DNA of 64,000 nucleotides from Maylandia zebra (taxonomy: Eukaryota; Chordata; Actinopteri; Cichliformes; Cichlidae). The notes beneath the pieces were generated by a model, which worked only from the letters and a program-made list of their open reading frames with translations, was not told where the DNA came from and searched no databases. The position numbers and the translations under genes were made by a program. This document shows positions 1,380 through 47,800 of this stretch, in pieces (the stretch's first letter is position 1; every line of letters begins with the position of its first letter). The stretch is from positions 18,448,056 to 18,512,055 of the forward strand of contig NC_135187.1 of the NCBI RefSeq assembly GCF_041146795.1. Reading direction: 5' to 3'.

Positions 1380-4300
1380 TCATTCCATCTGCTCCCCACC
1401 TGTGACTTTTTCATTTCCACTTTCGTCCATCGGTTCTGGTGCGTCTTCGCCGCTTTCCATCTCCTCTGTCGTGTCAGCTGCTGATTCGGCAGGCTGCTGC
1501 TCCGGGATGACCAGGTTGTGCTTGAGTTTGCTCAGTTCGGCCATGTTGAAGCCGAGGAGGATGCCTGCAGTGTTCCTCTTGAGACTCTTCATGCACTTGC
1601 TGCGTTTCTTGCTGAAGAGCGCCGCCAGCTCCGCCTTGGTAAGAGACAGCCTCTTGCACAGCTCTTCGGTCTCTGCTTTGGTCGCGTACGGGTTCACGTT
1701 GAAGTATTTGGATATGAAGTCTCTACGCTCCTCGCTGCAGCGGCGCTCCGTTGGGGTGGGCTCCAGCAGCAGCTTGACCGCCATGTCGCTCTGAACTTCG
1801 GGCTCTGGCGGAGGCAACAACTTCTCCTGCTCTCGCTTCTTGCGCATGGCTGCCCTGTGTTCTCGCTCTCGTTTGTTGGCCTCGAGGACCTCCCGCCACG
1901 CAGCTTCCAGTCTCCTCTTCGACTGCAGCTCTGCTTCGGTTTCCGGAGGCTCTGTGGGGCGCACGATAGGAATCAAGCGAGCTGGAGCAACCCGAGCTGG
2001 AGCCACACGAGCTGGAGTCACGCGAGCTGGAGTCAATGTCTGTTTCATAGTCAGCCCTTGTGGTACTTGAAGGAAGTAGAGACCGGAAGCCTGATTGACC
2101 TGCTGAGCTGGTTTTGGTGGCGGCTGGGGTGCTGCAGCAGGTGTGGGTGGTTGTTGTGGCTTGGGTGAACAACGACATCGCTGAATGTGGAGCATCACAG
2201 CCTGCTGGGTGACCTTTCCTGTGTACACGCCGTTGCAGTATATGCACTTGAAAGCCTCCGTCTTGAGAATAGCGTGGATAGTGGGTGCTACAAAGTGCTT
2301 CTGTTTCAGGTGCTGCAAGTAGTCTGACTCCTGCTGAAACTTTTCATCACAAAAGGGACAGTAGGAGCTGTTGACTTTGACGGGTACGGAGCAGATTTCC
2401 GGGTGGTTGCTGGGCTGCAACTTAAAGAAAATCAGATCTAGGGAACTTGTGACCAAGGCGAGCTTGACCTCTGCGTCACCAAGGATCTCTCTTGGCGCAG
2501 AGGTGTGAACGTCAAAATAAGGGAACAGGATCCCTCCAGCACCCTTTGAGTAGACTCTGTACTTCTGCCTCAGGAAATCACAGTATGCCTTGCTTGTAGG
2601 ATTGTGCTGCTTTACATGTTCGATGAGCTGTTTGATTGAGAAGAACAAGGCTGAGCAGTACAAGCAATTCAAGCCATGCAGCAGGTGCTGGAAGACGCTC
2701 TTTTCTGATAGTAGAATTTTGCAGGTTAGACATTTCACAGTTTTGTCAGGCATTTTTTTCAGGAATGCAGCTCGCGCAGCTACACTTTCTGACTTGGACG
2801 AGGAAGATTTTGTCTGGTGGGCGACCTCGGTGTGCATGTCAAAGACATTGGAAGGGAAGAGTTCATTGCAGAGGGGACAGGTTATCCATTTCTTAGTTTG
2901 TGGCGTGGAATTTATTTGTTCAACTGACTTGAGGGCAGTACTTGTGCTGTGAGAGACTGGCACTGCTACTTGCAGGGGAGCAAAAGTGTACGTGGGCATT
3001 CCGTTCACCTTGTTGCCAGTCGGGATCAGGTGACTCAGCAGAGACTGTGAAGTCAACATAGTACCTTGTAGGCCGATTTGGTTTGTTGCTAAACTGTGTG
3101 TAACTGCAGCAGGCTTGGGTACAGTCCCAGGTCCAGCTGCTACGTTCGCCTGCAGTCCCGACTGAAGGAGGATCTGCTGCGCTTGTGGGGTCTGTTGTGC
3201 AGGAGCAGGAGCTGAAGGAGGCGCTGAAGCGGGAGTTAAGGTCACTGGCGCCTGTTTTAGAGCAAGATTCGAAACTGTGGGAAGGTGGACCATAGGCGGT
3301 CCTTGGGGCAAAGCACTTCGGAGGGCTATCGTGGCACCGGGCTGAAGCAAACCTTTAGCCTCAGCACTAGCTAGCTGCACTAGCGCTGAGGCCTGAGGTG
3401 GCAGGAAAGCTTGGTTTGTTCCAGGGCCACAGATCAGAGTGGTACTGTTTGCAGTCCCTTGTACTTGCTGTAATGTCACTACAGTCCCAGCAGGTTGGCC
3501 GTTACTTGGCAAGACCAAAGATTTACTATTGAGCATTTGAGGTTGCTGTGGTTTGGGAGCAATACTTGGGAATGTCACAAACACACCATTCCCATTAGGA
3601 GTCGGTTTAACAATGTAGTTCTTATTCTCATAAATCAGAACCTGCACTTGTGTGCTTACTGTATAATGTGATGGCTCGATGAGCATGTGATGCAACATTT
3701 GGTCTAGAGTTCCAGTGTTCACCTTGCACATCTTGCAGCAATACACTTTGACAGATGAATTCCCCTGAAGGTGCAACCTGTAACCGATGTACTGCTCTGC
3801 CAAACTCTCCATGTGCTTCAGAATAATGTGCTTCTTCATTGCAAAGATAGAAGATGTGGGAAACGCACATCTTCGACACTGATACCTCTCGTTTCCACGA
3901 TGGGTGGGTAAAGATGTTTCCCTCTGCAGCGGTATCTGGGTGTTTGACACAGGGAGTTTGGCGTGGAAGAACAGCATGTGCTTCTTCACAACCTTGGGGT
4001 GGCCGATGAAGACGCACTGTGAGCAGGGTGTCAGCGCACAGAAGGACTGGACGTAACCGTGGCAGCGGGAGACATGGCTCCTGAAGTTGTAGATGTTTTG
4101 TGAAGAGTACTTGCACAGGCTGCAGCACAGAGATCGAGACCGATACGGCCACTGAGGACGGAGAAAAGACAATGAAAGCGTAAGAGGAGGCAAAAAAAAG
4201 TGCTTTTAAAGAATCCACAGCATGAGAAAATTTTTTTTTTTTTTTTTTTTAAATATCAGGTTTACCTTCTTTTGCATTCTGCTGTAGTATCCTTCCGCAA

Positions 4301-17764: not shown

Positions 17765-20204
17765 TTAGGGACTGTACGGGAGAAACGAGAAGTTCTTCAT
17801 GGCGCCACCCAGTGTCACGCCGGCCTCCTGCATTTCGTACCTGAGGACAACAGTGTGACGATCAATTCTCTTAATGTCTTGTTGCTACATTTTCATGAGT
17901 GGCAGACACCAACGCACTCACCAGTCAGAGGTGGAGACTGTGTAGTAGATTGGCAGTGGGGGGGCAGTGGAGAGGCAGCTTAGGTCCTCTAGGCCGCACA
18001 CCCCCATGTTGGAGAACAGAAGCCAGTCTCCCACACTGAGCTCTGGTAGTAGGCAGCGCTCCACCACCTGGTCTAAGGGGTCCAGTGAGGGCCCCCAAAG
18101 GCTGCTGGCATACATTGCCTCCTCAGCACACAACACACGCTGGGGGGCAACAAAACCCATCAAAACAGGCAAAAAACAGACAACAGTAACCATGTGCGTG
18201 CTATCACATGATCTATTCAGTCATGAATTGAGTTTAGTCTCCTCTACTAACCTTGTGTACTGACGGGGCAGGGATGGAGTTTCCCAGCAGCTTGCGGCCA
18301 AATGGACCATAAACACCCTCATTCATGTAGTACAGGAACTCAGTATCCTCATTGTTCTCACCTGAGTGAATACATTAGATAACCATTTTAGAAATCTAAA
18401 ACAAGAGTTACTTCAACTAGTTTGGTTCTGATTGTATGAAAAGTTAAATAATCACAACCTCAGAGAGTAAAGTAACTCACCTTGAGCTAGGCTGTCCCAG
18501 TGGCGAGTCACCACCTTCTTGCCCATAATGTTGACAGCCAGGCTGAAGGCGGAGGCCACGTAGAAGCTGCCCGGCTGGGCCAAGACCTGCACACCAGAAA
18601 GCTGGGGGAAGTAGGCATCCAGCAGTGGCCTGACTGCAGTTTCAACCTGCATACAGTGAACAGACAGATCAGATATTTTCAGATTAAAAAACAAAAAGAC
18701 AAAAATAAAGGACTGGATCATAGGAATAAATGCTTTTGCTTATTAGCTAATAATAAGCTTCTTGCTAATAAAGCAGTTAAAAAGAAGATTGAAGCATTTC
18801 TAAATGAGTCACTTCAGTTCACTACTTGCCTGTTTCAGCTGAAACTCTGAGCCAGTAAATCCACCACCAATGTCAAGGATGTTCATGTTAAACCCCACTT
18901 CCACCTGAGTAGATACAGACAGTTGTCATATCAGATAAAGTCATTTCAAGACAGAATACTGGGGGGTGGGGAATCAAGTTAATATATGTCTACTACTAGA
19001 GTTATGATTTCATAATTAGGACAGCACTCACCCCCATGTCAAACACACAGCGGGCATCTGACAGTGCATGGGTGTAGGCCTGTTGCAGGTCCTGGCAGGA
19101 GCTGGGGATGTGGAAGGTTACCCCCACCACCTCGACTCCCAGCTCCTTGGCTGCTTCCAGCAGGTGCCGGCAGCTCTTGAGAGAGGAGCCGAAGGTCATG
19201 CTGGTCTCAGCCGCGTGGGCCTCTGTGGTCAACTGCAGCAGCAACCTGGAAGGGGTGGGAGGGGGGGTCAGATGCATTTTAAATTAGACCATGGATCTTC
19301 TTTTGGACTTTGCGTTTATTAAAAAAAAAAAAAAAGTTTGCTCATTTACTTTGCATTAGGATGCAGACGGGCAATCTTGGACAACTCTGCCTCATTTTCA
19401 CACACAAGATGCTGGATGTTGTTCTTGGCAGCATACTTGATGTGTGCCAGTTGCTTGAACACACTTGAGAGGATGATGCTTTCCGGTGGTACACCATGAT
19501 CCAGCACCAGGCTCATTTCAGCCTGCAGGTAATAGGATGCACAAAAATAATAAATAAAATAAATAATTAAATAATACCACACACTCATTAAAACAATCAA
19601 AAGCAGTACTAAATGCGTTGCATAAGTTGAAAGGATAACAGTCATCAGCTGACTACCAATCAATGATGCTTGTAATGTAATTTCCCTTAAAAAAAAAAAA
19701 TGAAGTGCTTACATAAGAGGATGAAGCACTTTGCAGCTTAAAAATAATTACTGACTGAGTCAAAACTACATGAAAAAGCTTACCTTGTTGGCGCAAATGA
19801 AGCCCAGGCCCAAGGATGCCAGCAATTCAATGACTGCAGGGCTGCTGTTGCACTTGACTGGGTAGTAGGGCTGCACATGTGGCACCAGGCTCTGCCAGCA
19901 CAAATGCTGTCGCATCAGTGCACCGAGATCACCCACCACAAAAGCACTTTTCTCCACCTGAGAAATCAGAAAGAAGGTAGGGTGCAGGTAAACAAATTTA
20001 TCAAACATGTATAACTACAAATCCCATCAGATTAAGTAACTCACTGATGCAAAATAGAATTCAGGGATAGCCTCAAGAGAGTGTTATAGAAGCTGAACTG
20101 ACCAGAGCCTGTTCACAGATGTGTGCATCAATGACATCTTCCAGAGTCACTCCTCCCTCCAGTAGTTCAATGATGTAGCTGGGTTGGTCAGTGAGTCCTT
20201 TCAT
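17765..20204 (-). CDS. azin1: Antizyme inhibitor 1 (catalytically dead ornithine decarboxylase homologue)
   Basis: Nine coding exons are 20103-20204, 19784-19957, 19350-19522, 19032-19245, 18830-18904, 18481-18646, 18252-18361, 17922-18139 and 17765-17840. They give 435 aa (human about 448) with phases consistent throughout. The start [15 protein letters not shown] matches the MKG start of AZIN1. ODC-fold landmarks are [19 protein letters not shown] (PLP-lysine region), an antizyme-binding-like segment [12 protein letters not shown] (exon 19350-19522), LDIGGGFTG and SSLWGPS. The tail [19 protein letters not shown] is AZIN1-specific and unlike ODC or AZIN2. The ODC catalytic Cys (WGPTCD in ODC) is Leu here (WGPSLDPLD). 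Known role: binds antizyme and frees ODC, raising polyamines. The intron after 18830 has a GC donor. Translational control by the leader is described separately. Confidence 0.95.
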
Positions 20205-20205
20205 C

Positions 20206-20235
20206 TCAACCGTATTCCGTTAATCCGACAATCAT
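20206..20235 (-). promoter_or_regulatory. Short AUG uORF ending one base before the azin1 start
   Basis: In the last leader exon (20205-20300), ATG at 20233-20235 opens a nine-codon frame (MIVGLTEYG). Its TGA (20206-20208) is followed by a single G and then the main ATG, giving TGAGATG. A ribosome that reads it would terminate right beside the main start. Whether it is translated is not known from sequence. Confidence 0.6.
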
Positions 20236-20558
20236 AAAGAGCAGATAAACAAGTCAGGGGGTCACGACTGAGCCAATGGGTCCTGCCGGTATGCAACAAA
20301 CTGGAGAGAAGAGGGAAGAGACCAAAAAAAACCAAACAAACAAAAAAACAAAAAAAAAAACAAAAAAACCACACACACACAGAAGAAGAAAGGAATATAT
20401 GACTATGGCCTTTAAAAAAACCCAAACAAAACAGCTTTGTGTGCAGAATTGAGTCCTTCTCCCACACACACCTTCACTATAAAAATGCATGCATCTTTGT
20501 GTATAAGACACACATAGCTACTCACATGGACAAGTCAGGAGATGGACCTGTCCCTTTA

Positions 20559-21490
20559 TCAGCTAGGATCCCAAGGTGGCTCAGCGTTGAAGTTAAAGTG
20601 CTCCCGGTAAAGAGCCGCCCCTAGGCCCTCTGGGTAGCGTTCATACACCTGTGCAGAGACAGGGGAGCCCTGAAGTACAAGCACTCAGTATTAGATATAG
20701 ATCCAGAGGAAAGACACTTTCAGGAAACATGTAGCACAGCGTTCTTAAGGAGGCTCAACAATCCTGATTGTTGCTTTTGATGTTTAGGTCTTATCTATTG
20801 AATATTTGTCATGGGTCAAAACCTGAATGACACAACACCCCTATCGGTTCAGTTACACCCGACTTAATGCCTGTAACTGAACTACTACCCCTGTCGTTAG
20901 TGTTTTTATGGCTGCTGGTACTCCTTACGCGATAGACGTCCAAATAAAACACGCGCATGCGCTGTAGTACTCACAACAGTGTCACAACTTGACAAATTGA
21001 GTATTATTTCAATGCGCAGACAAAGCATAACCCCTAACTAGAGCAAACTGATGTAATACGTTACATTTGACTAGTTAAAAGATATTTGTATTGCTCAAAG
21101 GAAACGCCATTGTGACAAAACACACTGCTGAAAGGTTCATGGAAACGACAGAACCGCTAACTGACGACGGAAGGAGCTTACGTTAGAGCTGGGTGTCCTT
21201 AAAATTTCAATAACAAGCCGCTAAATGACACAATAAACGAATAAAAGCTACATAGTGGTGCCGTGACTGCGTCACAATTTCTTAATACATTGAGTTGAAC
21301 ACGAAAACACCCGGAAAACACATATTTCAATATGTGGCTCGGTCATGTGCAGCAAGAAGGCAGAAAGACGAGCCCGCCATGTTACGTCCGCCCGCTGAAC
21401 CCAAAGAACTCAATCGAAGTACTTCGCTGTACTTACGTGAGATAACGGCCAGAAGGTTTTGGAAAATCGTCTTCTCTTTTTCGGCGGAAT
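20559..21490 (-). promoter_or_regulatory. azin1 upstream conserved coding region (uCC), AUU-initiated, PPW arrest motif
   Basis: Exon 1 (ends 21437, donor GTAAGT) and exon 2 (20526-20648, acceptor CTGCACAG) join to give one 47-codon frame. It begins ATT at 21488-21490, starts IPPKKRRRFSK, passes through VYERYPEGLGAALYREH and ends NAEPPWDPS then TGA (20559-20561). A TAG closes the frame upstream, and I see no AUG or other near-cognate start before the ATT. Known biology of vertebrate AZIN1: high polyamines stall ribosomes at this PPW. Queued ribosomes then raise initiation at the weak AUU, lowering AZIN1 synthesis. All key parts are present here. About 129 leader bases separate its stop from the main ATG. 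Confidence 0.88.
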
Positions 21491-21492
21491 TT

Positions 21493-21546
21493 TTAAAGAG
21501 TAGTGGGCACAATGATATAAGAAAGAAAGACGGCTGTTTTTGCCAT
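21493..21546 (-). promoter_or_regulatory. AUG uORF ending two bases before the uCC AUU
   Basis: ATG at 21544-21546 opens a 17-codon frame (MAKTAVFLSYIIVPTTL). Its TAA at 21493-21495 is followed by two A bases and then the ATT start of the uCC. It counts only if transcription starts upstream of 21546, which the sequence suggests but does not prove. Confidence 0.45.
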
Positions 21547-44310: not shown

Positions 44311-44856
44311 TATGTTTGCAAATGTTTCAAGAAATATCTGCGCCCAATTCCCATTTCCTTGAAAAATAGTTATAGGAGTAAGTACGGTACAGTCCACCAC
44401 ATGATTTGTTGACCTTTGTGACACACCTTTTTAAAACAAAAGCCCAAATCAGGTGTGTCGACTCATACTGTATGCTTAGTATTTTTTTAATAAAATATAT
44501 TTGATAGTTTTATTTTATATAATTTAAAATGATAATTTATTGATTTATATTTTTGATCAAAAAAATATGACCCTTGATTACACACCGGAAGTTCTGTGAG
44601 TTATAAAAGACAGGAGTTTTGGCATGTTGCTGATGTTGATTGGTAATTAAACGTTCAGGCTTTAGGACCGCGCGGATCACGTTCTCGGTTGGCTGTGGCT
44701 CGGTGTGAACCGTTGGTGCTCCACGGCCACGGTACAGATAACACCTGGCTGACGGACGAGGCTACATCTTATCATGTAGCTGGGCAGCTCTGGGACGTTA
44801 CCCGACAAACCTGTTCGTTTTCCCCTTTACGTTATGCGGACAAAAATGATTTGAGG

Positions 44857-47800
44857 ATGGCCAAACGACCGGGGACTGAGGATGGGATGGTGACTTCGCC
44901 CACCGTTCTCCGGAATTTCGCCGCCGATTTGAGCATCGGAGACGTGAACATGGACTGCAGCGACGGAGCCGAGGAGCTCTCTTTAGAAGAAATCCTGGCT
45001 TTGTACAGCCAGCCGATAAACGAGGAGCAGGCATGGGCAGTGTGTTACCAGTGTTGTCGGACTTTAGCGCAGAAACACCGGAGGAGAAGCTCCAAGTCTG
45101 CTGTTGTCTCATCAGCCGAGCACCCGAGAAGGATTGAGGGACCCGGGAATGTGAGGCTCGGGAGAGACGGGACTGTCAAACTGCACTTTGAAGACAACGC
45201 AGGTAACTAAATCAACCAACCAAGACCGGGCAGGTGTCCGCTTTAGCTTTGTGTGCTATGAGTAACTGCACAGGTTAAACGAGGGAGACTGGCTTTGAAC
45301 AGGCAGCCGTCAACAACGACAACAAAAAGCATTTTCCTCCACATCCCTGACAGGCCAAACGAATGGAGCATCCCTACGAAGAGGCCATGTTGTTGTAGCT
45401 GCCTGCTTTTAGCCATGTGGCGATTTTGTTTACAGGCGCCTATTAATAATACATCATAGATCACCGCATAGCTGCTGGGGGGAAGACCACGAAAGCTTGT
45501 ATGATGAATTATTTACGTTGCGGGTTTGTTCTCATAACAGCGGCTGATATTTACATCACAAACATGATTCATATTAAAGCTCTGTTTAGACTGGTTTGTG
45601 AACAGGGCTGCCTCACAGCCACTCTCCCCTGGAGTACAGCGGTCAGTTAGTCAGCAAACACAAATCACGTGACCTGTTCAAATTGCAGAGCACCTTTTTG
45701 GGTGCCAGACTGCGGTGAAACAAAACACTCCCTACAAGCACGAGGCCGGAGACAGATGAGTCATAGCTGCTCTTTGTTGTGACATTTTGGGGTGAATTGG
45801 GGACAAATTTGGGGCCAGGAGGCAGAATCCATTCAACAGCAAGGTGCCAGGTGTAGGCTGAGAGGTTCCACGCAATTTAAATCTAGCTGGATGGAAGTTT
45901 GTGTACGCACGTTGACTGTATACATCCTCTATATCCACTCTGTTTTTGTTTCCGTCATGCGATTTAGAGGATCCTTGAACTCTTTAATACAGGCTCATTT
46001 TCTATACAGATATTTTTGGGTAGTAAATAGACTTTTGTTCTGTGCTTGGCTGTACAGATAGGAAAGCAAGTTATGTTTAATTCAATTCAGATTTTTTTAT
46101 ATGGCACCAAATCACAGCAGTAATCGCCTCAAGATGCTTCACATTGTAGGGTGAAGACCTTAAAATAATACAGAGAAAACCCCACCAGTCAGATGACCCC
46201 CCACTATGAGCAAGTGCTTGGCAAAAGTGGGGGGGGGGGGAAACACCCAAACGTTTAACAGGAAGAAACCTTTGCGAGAACCAGGCGGGATGGCAGATAT
46301 CTGCCACGACCGGTTTGGGGTAAAGGGAGGAAGACACTGTAAGAGAGTCAGAGGTTAATAATAAGTAATGCAGAGAGGTGTATAAACATGGTAAAAAAAG
46401 AAACACTCAGTGCATCATGGGAAGCCCCCAGCAATCTAGGCCTATTGCAGTGTAACTAAGGGAGGATCGTCAAAATTGTACTTTTAAATATCCTAGGAAT
46501 AATAAGTAAACCAGCAGTCTGGGAGTGACACGATCTGTTTGGTTGATACGGTACAATGATGTCTTTAAGATAAGCTGGATCTAAAGTGAGAGTAGATGTC
46601 TAAGATGAAAACGCTCGACTTCTATAAGACCCACACCAGAAAAACGTATTAGAAGCCAGCAGGTCTCTGTGTACTGAAACTACAGATGAAACTGTAGTGT
46701 ATCTCTATACACAGGAGAAAGGCTTAGTCTTGTACAACAGCTCAGGTGTGGAGAAAGGTGTGTAATGCCTTTAACTGCATTCCATTAATATTTCAGAGAT
46801 GAGATTGGGTGTGTCTTTCTGCGCAGCCACATTATGTGGGGAACTGATTTGAACCTTTCTTATTTTTTCCGTCCCCCTGTCTTGAGTTGACCCCTCTGTC
46901 CAGCTCTGCCTTGTCTAGACTAACCAGTAATATTGTCTTCCTGTGACTCCGGCTCTCAGAATAAACAGATTCACTTGGTGCTGCTTAGCATCTTTGCACC
47001 ACCAAAAATGGAACAAATGTGTTGATTAGATGCACTGATTTTCAGAGTGCACATCAGTTCGAGATTATGGGGAGAGTCCTCTGCTGCTCCTCCTCGCTGG
47101 TGGCTGGAGTATTTTTGGGACAGCTTGGCCCTGTCCTGATTCCTATTAGGCCTGGTGATGAGAGAGATGTGAGACCTATTAAGCATCCAGCAGCTGAGTG
47201 GCTAGTGTACCACACCGGCATAAAATCAGGGCTTATGCAACCTGCATATGGCCTGCATGAGTCAGTGACAAGGTGGCATGATTTGGCCAGCTCCCAGACC
47301 ACCAACAATAAGCTCCTCAACCCCTCTAGTGATATTGGCCTATATTAAGATTTTGACTGCTGCTGTGGGTGGTTATCAAGAAATCTCAGCAAGCGAAGAA
47401 GTGTTTATTTTCGTGACGCACAGCAAACAGAATCGGACTAATAAGCAGCACCAAGTCTTGGCTTATTTTGCGGTGAATCGAGGCGTGATGAACATGCTGC
47501 AGTCAGATCGGTTCACATGGAGCATGGGAAAGAATACCTTTGCCTCCTCTCCTGAATGCTGCATCAGACGAGACGTTTACCCTGATTTCAGTGATCCATA
47601 CCAGCAGGAGCTTCTTTTCCTTCTAAATTTATTTGACTTGCGGGTAGTGATGGTTAAAGACTTAATTATCGTGTCTCTCTGTGAAAGCCGCGAATGCCTT
47701 TCAGCAGAACAGAGGCTATTTGAATGGACAGAATAGTCAGGCTGACACTACACTCCTCTAAATATGTCCGCTGAGATTTACTTGGCCTGCAAGGGTCCTG

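Follow-up and report, generated by a model that had tools for sequence, protein, structure and literature searches.

A putative polyamine-sensing uCC in the azin1 leader of the cichlid Maylandia zebra, with a second copy and a related frame ahead of odc1

The leader of vertebrate antizyme inhibitor 1 (AZIN1) mRNA contains an upstream frame, the uCC, which is reportedly described in Ivanov et al. 2008 (PNAS) and Ivanov et al. 2018 (Mol Cell). A frame split by an intron lies ahead of azin1 in Maylandia zebra, and it raises the question of whether this is the same element, whether it would act by the same switch and whether it has relatives in the same genome. The stretch of DNA analysed, referred to as the window, is 64,000 nucleotides long and lies on contig C21 of the species' own genome (962 Mb, 63 contigs), which was the genome examined.

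The split frame and its gene

The frame is located on the minus strand, where 21490-21437 joined to 20648-20559 gives 144 nt and 47 codons from ATT to TGA, translated as IPPKKRRRFSKTFWPLSH before the junction and VYERYPEGLGAALYREHFNFNAEPPWDPS followed by the stop after it. The exon-1 part (21437..21490) consists of the ATT start codon (21490-21488) and codons 2-18, and ends at the donor C21437/GTAAGTA. The intron (20649..21436) is 788 nt long, is in phase 0 and has GTAAGTA...CAG boundaries; CTGCACAG directly precedes G20648, the first base of exon 2 (acceptor CAG/G20648). The exon-2 part (20559..20648) consists of codons 19-47 with a C-terminal EPPWDPS and is closed by TGA (20561-20559), directly after which lies a second in-frame stop, TAA (20558-20556). 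The modelled leader exon 2 extends over 20526..20648 (123 nt) to a donor, CCAT/GTGAGTA, that is common to a second azin1 copy, and modelled leader exon 3 begins at 20300. The junction of 21437 to 20648 is predicted from the DNA and from the second copy, with splice signals and phase kept in both.

Reading back from the ATT, the frame stays open for 20 codons up to a TAG at 21553-21551, and these codons include no ATG and no CTG, GTG, TTG, ACG, ATC, ATA, AAG or AGG, so the ATT is the first plausible start. The initial annotation had given the ATT, the splice from 21437 to 20648, the TGA and the PPWDPS end, all of which check, and its description of a frame closed upstream by TAG without an in-frame AUG is confirmed by codon reading.

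The main open reading frame that follows (17765..20204, minus strand) has nine coding exons and encodes 435 aa. Its best PDB matches are the antizyme inhibitor 1 chains 4zgz (E 2.3e-154) and 3btn (E 1.6e-152), with the best ornithine decarboxylase (ODC) chain behind both (E 9.1e-118). Four ODC motifs are replaced, with GFICANK for GFDCASK, QPGSFYV for EPGRYYV, MNEGVYG for VNDGVYG and GPSLDPLD for GPTCDGLD; given the catalytic roles of these residues, the changes fit a protein without catalysis. One intron of the main frame seems to have a GC donor (CAG/GCAAGT, at 18829-18828). Elsewhere the window contains an ADNP-family gene, seen as a 941-aa open frame at 1383-4205 on the minus strand (Pfam ADNP_N, E 4.2e-42), and a KIND domain match (E 5.4e-25) in the open frame 44647-45207 on the plus strand.

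The human uCC peptide is printed in the S5 Fig legend of PMC9648851, and 36 of 46 aligned residues are identical between this printed peptide and the window copy. The alignment score is 189, against a maximum of 33 over 2000 shuffles of the window peptide, and a chance origin of the likeness is not credible. Both peptides start with IPPKKRRRF and end with EPPWxPS, which reads EPPWEPS in human and EPPWDPS before the stop in both fish copies, and the exon-1 part alone is identical to human at 14 of 18 residues. The human frame has 52 codons, compared to 47 in the window copy; it carries six extra residues, GELSDQ, placed at the fish splice junction, and one residue fewer soon after it (VYN-YPEG, compared to VYERYPEG in the fish). 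The GELSDQ difference may reflect a shift of the splice boundary since the two lineages split. The second fish copy is identical to human at 32 of 46 residues, with the gap inside exon 1 instead of at the junction.

The likeness to the vertebrate uCC as it appears in the consulted sources extends to the AUU start, the lack of an in-frame AUG, the length of around 50 codons and the position ahead of AZIN1; a further difference is that the M. zebra genome has two azin1 gene copies. The available text of a 2015 paper (PMC4458265) reports that every vertebrate AzI mRNA available in 2008 carried a uCC some 50 codons long in which the AUU is conserved, and the fish frame is therefore a new copy of a known element. 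Its identity as the fish azin1 uCC, proposed in the initial annotation, is upheld by the human match, by the AZIN1 main frame and by the second copy with the same layout.

A second azin1 copy and the distribution of constraint

The 29-aa exon-2 part was searched against the whole genome (962 Mb, 63 contigs) and matched at two places, the window and a site on contig C11 that is 83% identical (E 5.5e-10). Upstream of the C11 match lies an ATT followed by 17 codons up to GTAAGT, and the frame reads IPPKKKKRSVPSFGFSAD, then VYNNYPEDLGAALYREPFDFNAEPPWDPS and a stop. The layout of ATT, 18 codons in all, a phase-0 intron (841 nt), 29 codons and TGA is in the same register as in the window copy; leader exon 2 is 122 nt long in the C11 copy, compared to 123 nt, and both copies have another in-frame stop (TAA or TAG) directly behind the TGA. 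Pattern scans for the PPW end in viral contigs and in genome contigs gave 0 and 0 matches, so the comparison rests on the C11 copy, the odc1 frame described below and the printed human peptide.

The two fish frames are identical at 31 of 47 residues, unevenly distributed as 24 of 29 in exon 2 and 7 of 18 in exon 1. For exon 2, dN/dS is 0.27 in frame, compared to 2.26 and 0.98 in the other two frames (values obtained after dropping the codon pairs that hold a stop, 1 of 29 and 4 of 28), and differences fall 3, 3 and 8 by codon position. Purifying selection on the exon-2 part is thus shown by the comparison. Exon 1 has a dN/dS of 0.42 and differences of 7, 7 and 8, without positional bias, so codons 9-18 have drifted between the two copies. 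The bias against non-synonymous change looked for across the frame in the initial annotation therefore stands for exon 2 and does not stand for exon 1 between the fish copies.

This imbalance bears on the possibility that the functional element is the exon-2 part, to which different first exons or start codons lead, with the ATT exon present only in some transcripts. A candidate start for such a unit, the GTG at codon 19, is present in both azin1 copies, and a review, in the portion consulted, gives murine Azin1 several transcripts by alternative splicing and putative alternative start sites. Against this, the ATT lies within the best conserved stretch 5' of the intron. When the 5' flanks of the two copies (around 2.6 kb each) were compared by blastn, the best match was a 36-nt block across the ATT (92%, E 1.7e-9), and the next best matches had E 0.020. 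The 14 of 18 exon-1 residues shared with human likewise speak against an exon-2 unit, as does the mouse uCC, in which repression was all but lost when the AUU or the last ten codons were altered (work cited in the accessible part of PMC4458265). An exon-2 unit is accordingly judged improbable, and the intact frame from ATT to TGA remains the preferred reading. The initial annotation also suggested that, with an intron placed between codons 18 and 19, some leaders could carry only one of the two parts, which is a guess.

The copies are old, since their main coding sequences are near saturation (dS 1.87; 39 of 114 four-fold sites identical). Against that background, codons for the same residue are identical at 19 of 24 positions in uCC exon 2, compared to 126 of 253 in the main coding sequence (Fisher p 0.005), and four-fold sites at 8 of 12, compared to 39 of 114 (p 0.03); the main-sequence set consists of 415 codon pairs taken from BLAST segments, a few of which may stem from intron overrun. 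The two copies do not differ at any nucleotide of codons 41-47 and the stop. With Trp left out, the remaining six codons give a Fisher p of 0.017 for a stretch chosen post hoc, which is only suggestive of nucleotide-level constraint over the stall site.

Decay of the window copy into a relic, with azin1 regulation lost, would agree with a short out-of-frame AUG uORF inside the window uCC (MNATQRA and a stop, 20621..20644, minus strand) that is absent from the C11 copy. Neither copy has a stop or frameshift inside the frame, though, and the nucleotide identity over codons 41-47 and the stop, together with the retained stop, splice sites and spacing, makes a relic highly improbable. It is equally unlikely that the frame makes a stable micropeptide working in trans and not an arrest peptide acting in cis. 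Purifying selection on exon 2 would be expected of such a product, but the two ends, the start and the C-terminal arrest region, hold most of the conservation while the middle varies and human carries six extra residues, no Pfam family is found for the uCC peptide at E 0.001, and the mammalian work, as far as the consulted excerpts go, attributes the effect to a stall within the regulated mRNA itself. What the two azin1 copies keep is the spacing and codon count, with the AUU block and the PPWDPS end fixed and codons 9-18 drifting.

Leader uORFs and the proposed switch

Besides the uCC, the modelled azin1 leader contains three further ATGs with uORFs, which the initial annotation does not mention. 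One is the uORF inside the uCC described above. Another (21493..21546, minus strand) encodes MAKTAVFLSYIIVPTTL, and its TAA is separated from the uCC ATT by 2 nt; it matters only if transcription starts upstream of 21546. Its C11 counterpart, MANIVFSSSLPTTL followed by a stop, has the same start and end (ATGGCAAA...CCCACCACTCTTTAA). A uORF ending 2 nt before an ATT occurs at 20 of the 2959 ATTs in the window (both strands, the uCC's own included). Likeness between the copies upstream of the shared end is weak, being reached by 119 of 5000 shuffles and 82 of 5000 random flank pairs, and the two copies are not independent witnesses for the arrangement. The last uORF, MIVGLTEYG and a stop (20206..20235, minus strand), has nine codons and ends 1 nt before the main ATG; its C11 counterpart, MPVGFEENG and a stop, has the same length and in part the same residues, and leaves 4 nt before the main ATG.

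A pyrimidine at position -3 is a weak AUG context under the Kozak rule. All four AUGs of the pre-ATT and pre-main-ATG uORFs in the two copies have a pyrimidine there, and the leader AUG uORFs could reduce the number of scanning ribosomes that arrive at the uCC AUU. Predicted RNA structure of the leader is unremarkable, with z 0.46 and 134 of 200 shuffles folding as well; the excerpted PMC6067879 describes a G2-quadruplex in the AZIN1 5'UTR.

AUU initiation, a polyamine- and eIF5A-dependent PPW stall and ribosome queuing are described for mammals in the consulted portions of PMC11058473, PMC11550727, PMC9082881 and PMC4458265. Splicing, translation, stalling and polyamine response of the fish frame are taken from this precedent and from the DNA, and the same switch in M. 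zebra is a sound inference from the mammalian work. At low polyamines, most 40S subunits would scan past the poor AUU and AZIN1 would be translated, whilst the few ribosomes initiating at the AUU would arrive at Pro42-Pro43-Trp44. At high polyamines, which would counteract eIF5A, ribosomes would pause at PPW, and those behind would queue back toward the AUU around 126 nt upstream, thereby raising AUU initiation. Increased AUU initiation would lower AZIN1 synthesis, and less AZIN1 would free antizyme, leading to removal of ODC. From the AUU to the PPW P-site codon the distance is 42 codons, which would correspond to about four ribosome lengths, taking a 30-nt footprint from the consulted literature. 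A review, in its accessible portion, places the AUU around 30 codons upstream in mammals, and queue length may therefore differ in fish. The reading of the window frame as the teleost azin1 uCC, belonging to one of two azin1 copies and presumably acting by the mammalian polyamine/PPW switch, is given a probability of about 0.93.

A PPW frame ahead of odc1 and other polyamine-responsive leaders

When the AZIN1 protein was searched against the genome, 27 exon-like matches were found, on C21 (the window), C11, C19 and C4. The C4 matches fall in two places around 32 kb apart on opposite strands, so the family has at least five places. By content, the C19 gene is odc1, keeping FDCASK, EPGRFYV, VNDGVYG and GPTCDGLD, and for one of its exons the best matches are ODC chains (4.8e-31, compared to 2.7e-16 for AZIN1). 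The C4 gene at 6.31-6.32 Mb is nearer to ODC than to AZIN1 chains; no uCC was found in the 9.9 kb piece upstream of it, from which exons further out would escape. The further ODC-like place (C4:6.3516-6.3525 Mb, plus strand), around 32 kb from those matches on the other strand, likewise yielded no uCC in the surrounding 10 kb and 3 kb pieces (best E 0.18), beyond which farther exons would escape.

In the odc1 leader, a predicted splice model on the minus strand (C19:17239770-17239759 joined to 17238951-17238841) gives a frame of 40 codons, MLFKNLHSRKSHTGYSAGPGLESYLKGFNFTGEPPWLLCT and a stop, with an AUG start and, after codon 4, a predicted phase-0 intron. Aligned to the window uCC it scores 62, a value reached by 0 of 5000 shuffles; among unrelated frames in 62.7 kb of the window, the highest score is 39. 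A 12-nt stretch, GAGCCACCTTGG, is identical in all three copies (window, C11 and odc1), and around it 24 of 30 nt match between window and odc1. The 29-aa whole-genome search missed this diverged frame and hence gives no proof of absence elsewhere.

The odc1 frame resembles the azin1 uCC in having GEPPW near the stop, an in-frame (predicted) phase-0 intron and a layout of exon 1, exon 2 and main-ATG exon. It differs in its AUG start, its 40 codons and its end, PPWLLCT before the stop instead of PPWDPS. It is a diverged homologue of the azin1 uCC, likely a sister element, and it raises the question of whether ODC itself is under the same eIF5A/polyamine brake as antizyme inhibitor. A PPW frame on ODC1 was found in none of the consulted portions of PMC11550727, PMC10855120, PMC9082881, PMC6067879 and PMC4383229; it may already be described in the 2008 paper on ODC-homolog uORFs.

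A broader and rather unlikely scheme would derive odc1 and both azin1 frames from one ancestral PPW sensor with matching three-exon leaders, tuned by start codon (weak-context AUG on odc1 versus AUU on azin1), with the azin1 uORF 2 nt before the AUU feeding or blocking near-cognate initiation as a second layer on queuing. If true, a single polyamine signal would brake the enzyme and its protector at different thresholds.

Two other polyamine-responsive leaders offer a comparison. The yeast HOL1 uORF (MLLLPS and a stop), polyamine- and eIF5A-dependent according to the excerpted PMC10855120, shares its Pro-Ser-stop end with the fish azin1 uCC, but is a hexapeptide and acts by termination rather than by a PPW elongation pause; Pro-Ser-stop as a second brake has already been raised in that text. 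The MAGDIS uORF of AMD1 is, in the sources consulted, likewise a polyamine-responsive arrest peptide in the leader of a polyamine gene, with the difference that it has six residues and another peptide. Set beside these systems, the window frame is a new copy of the known uCC, to which the duplicate, the AUG uORFs and, above all, the odc1 frame are the additions.
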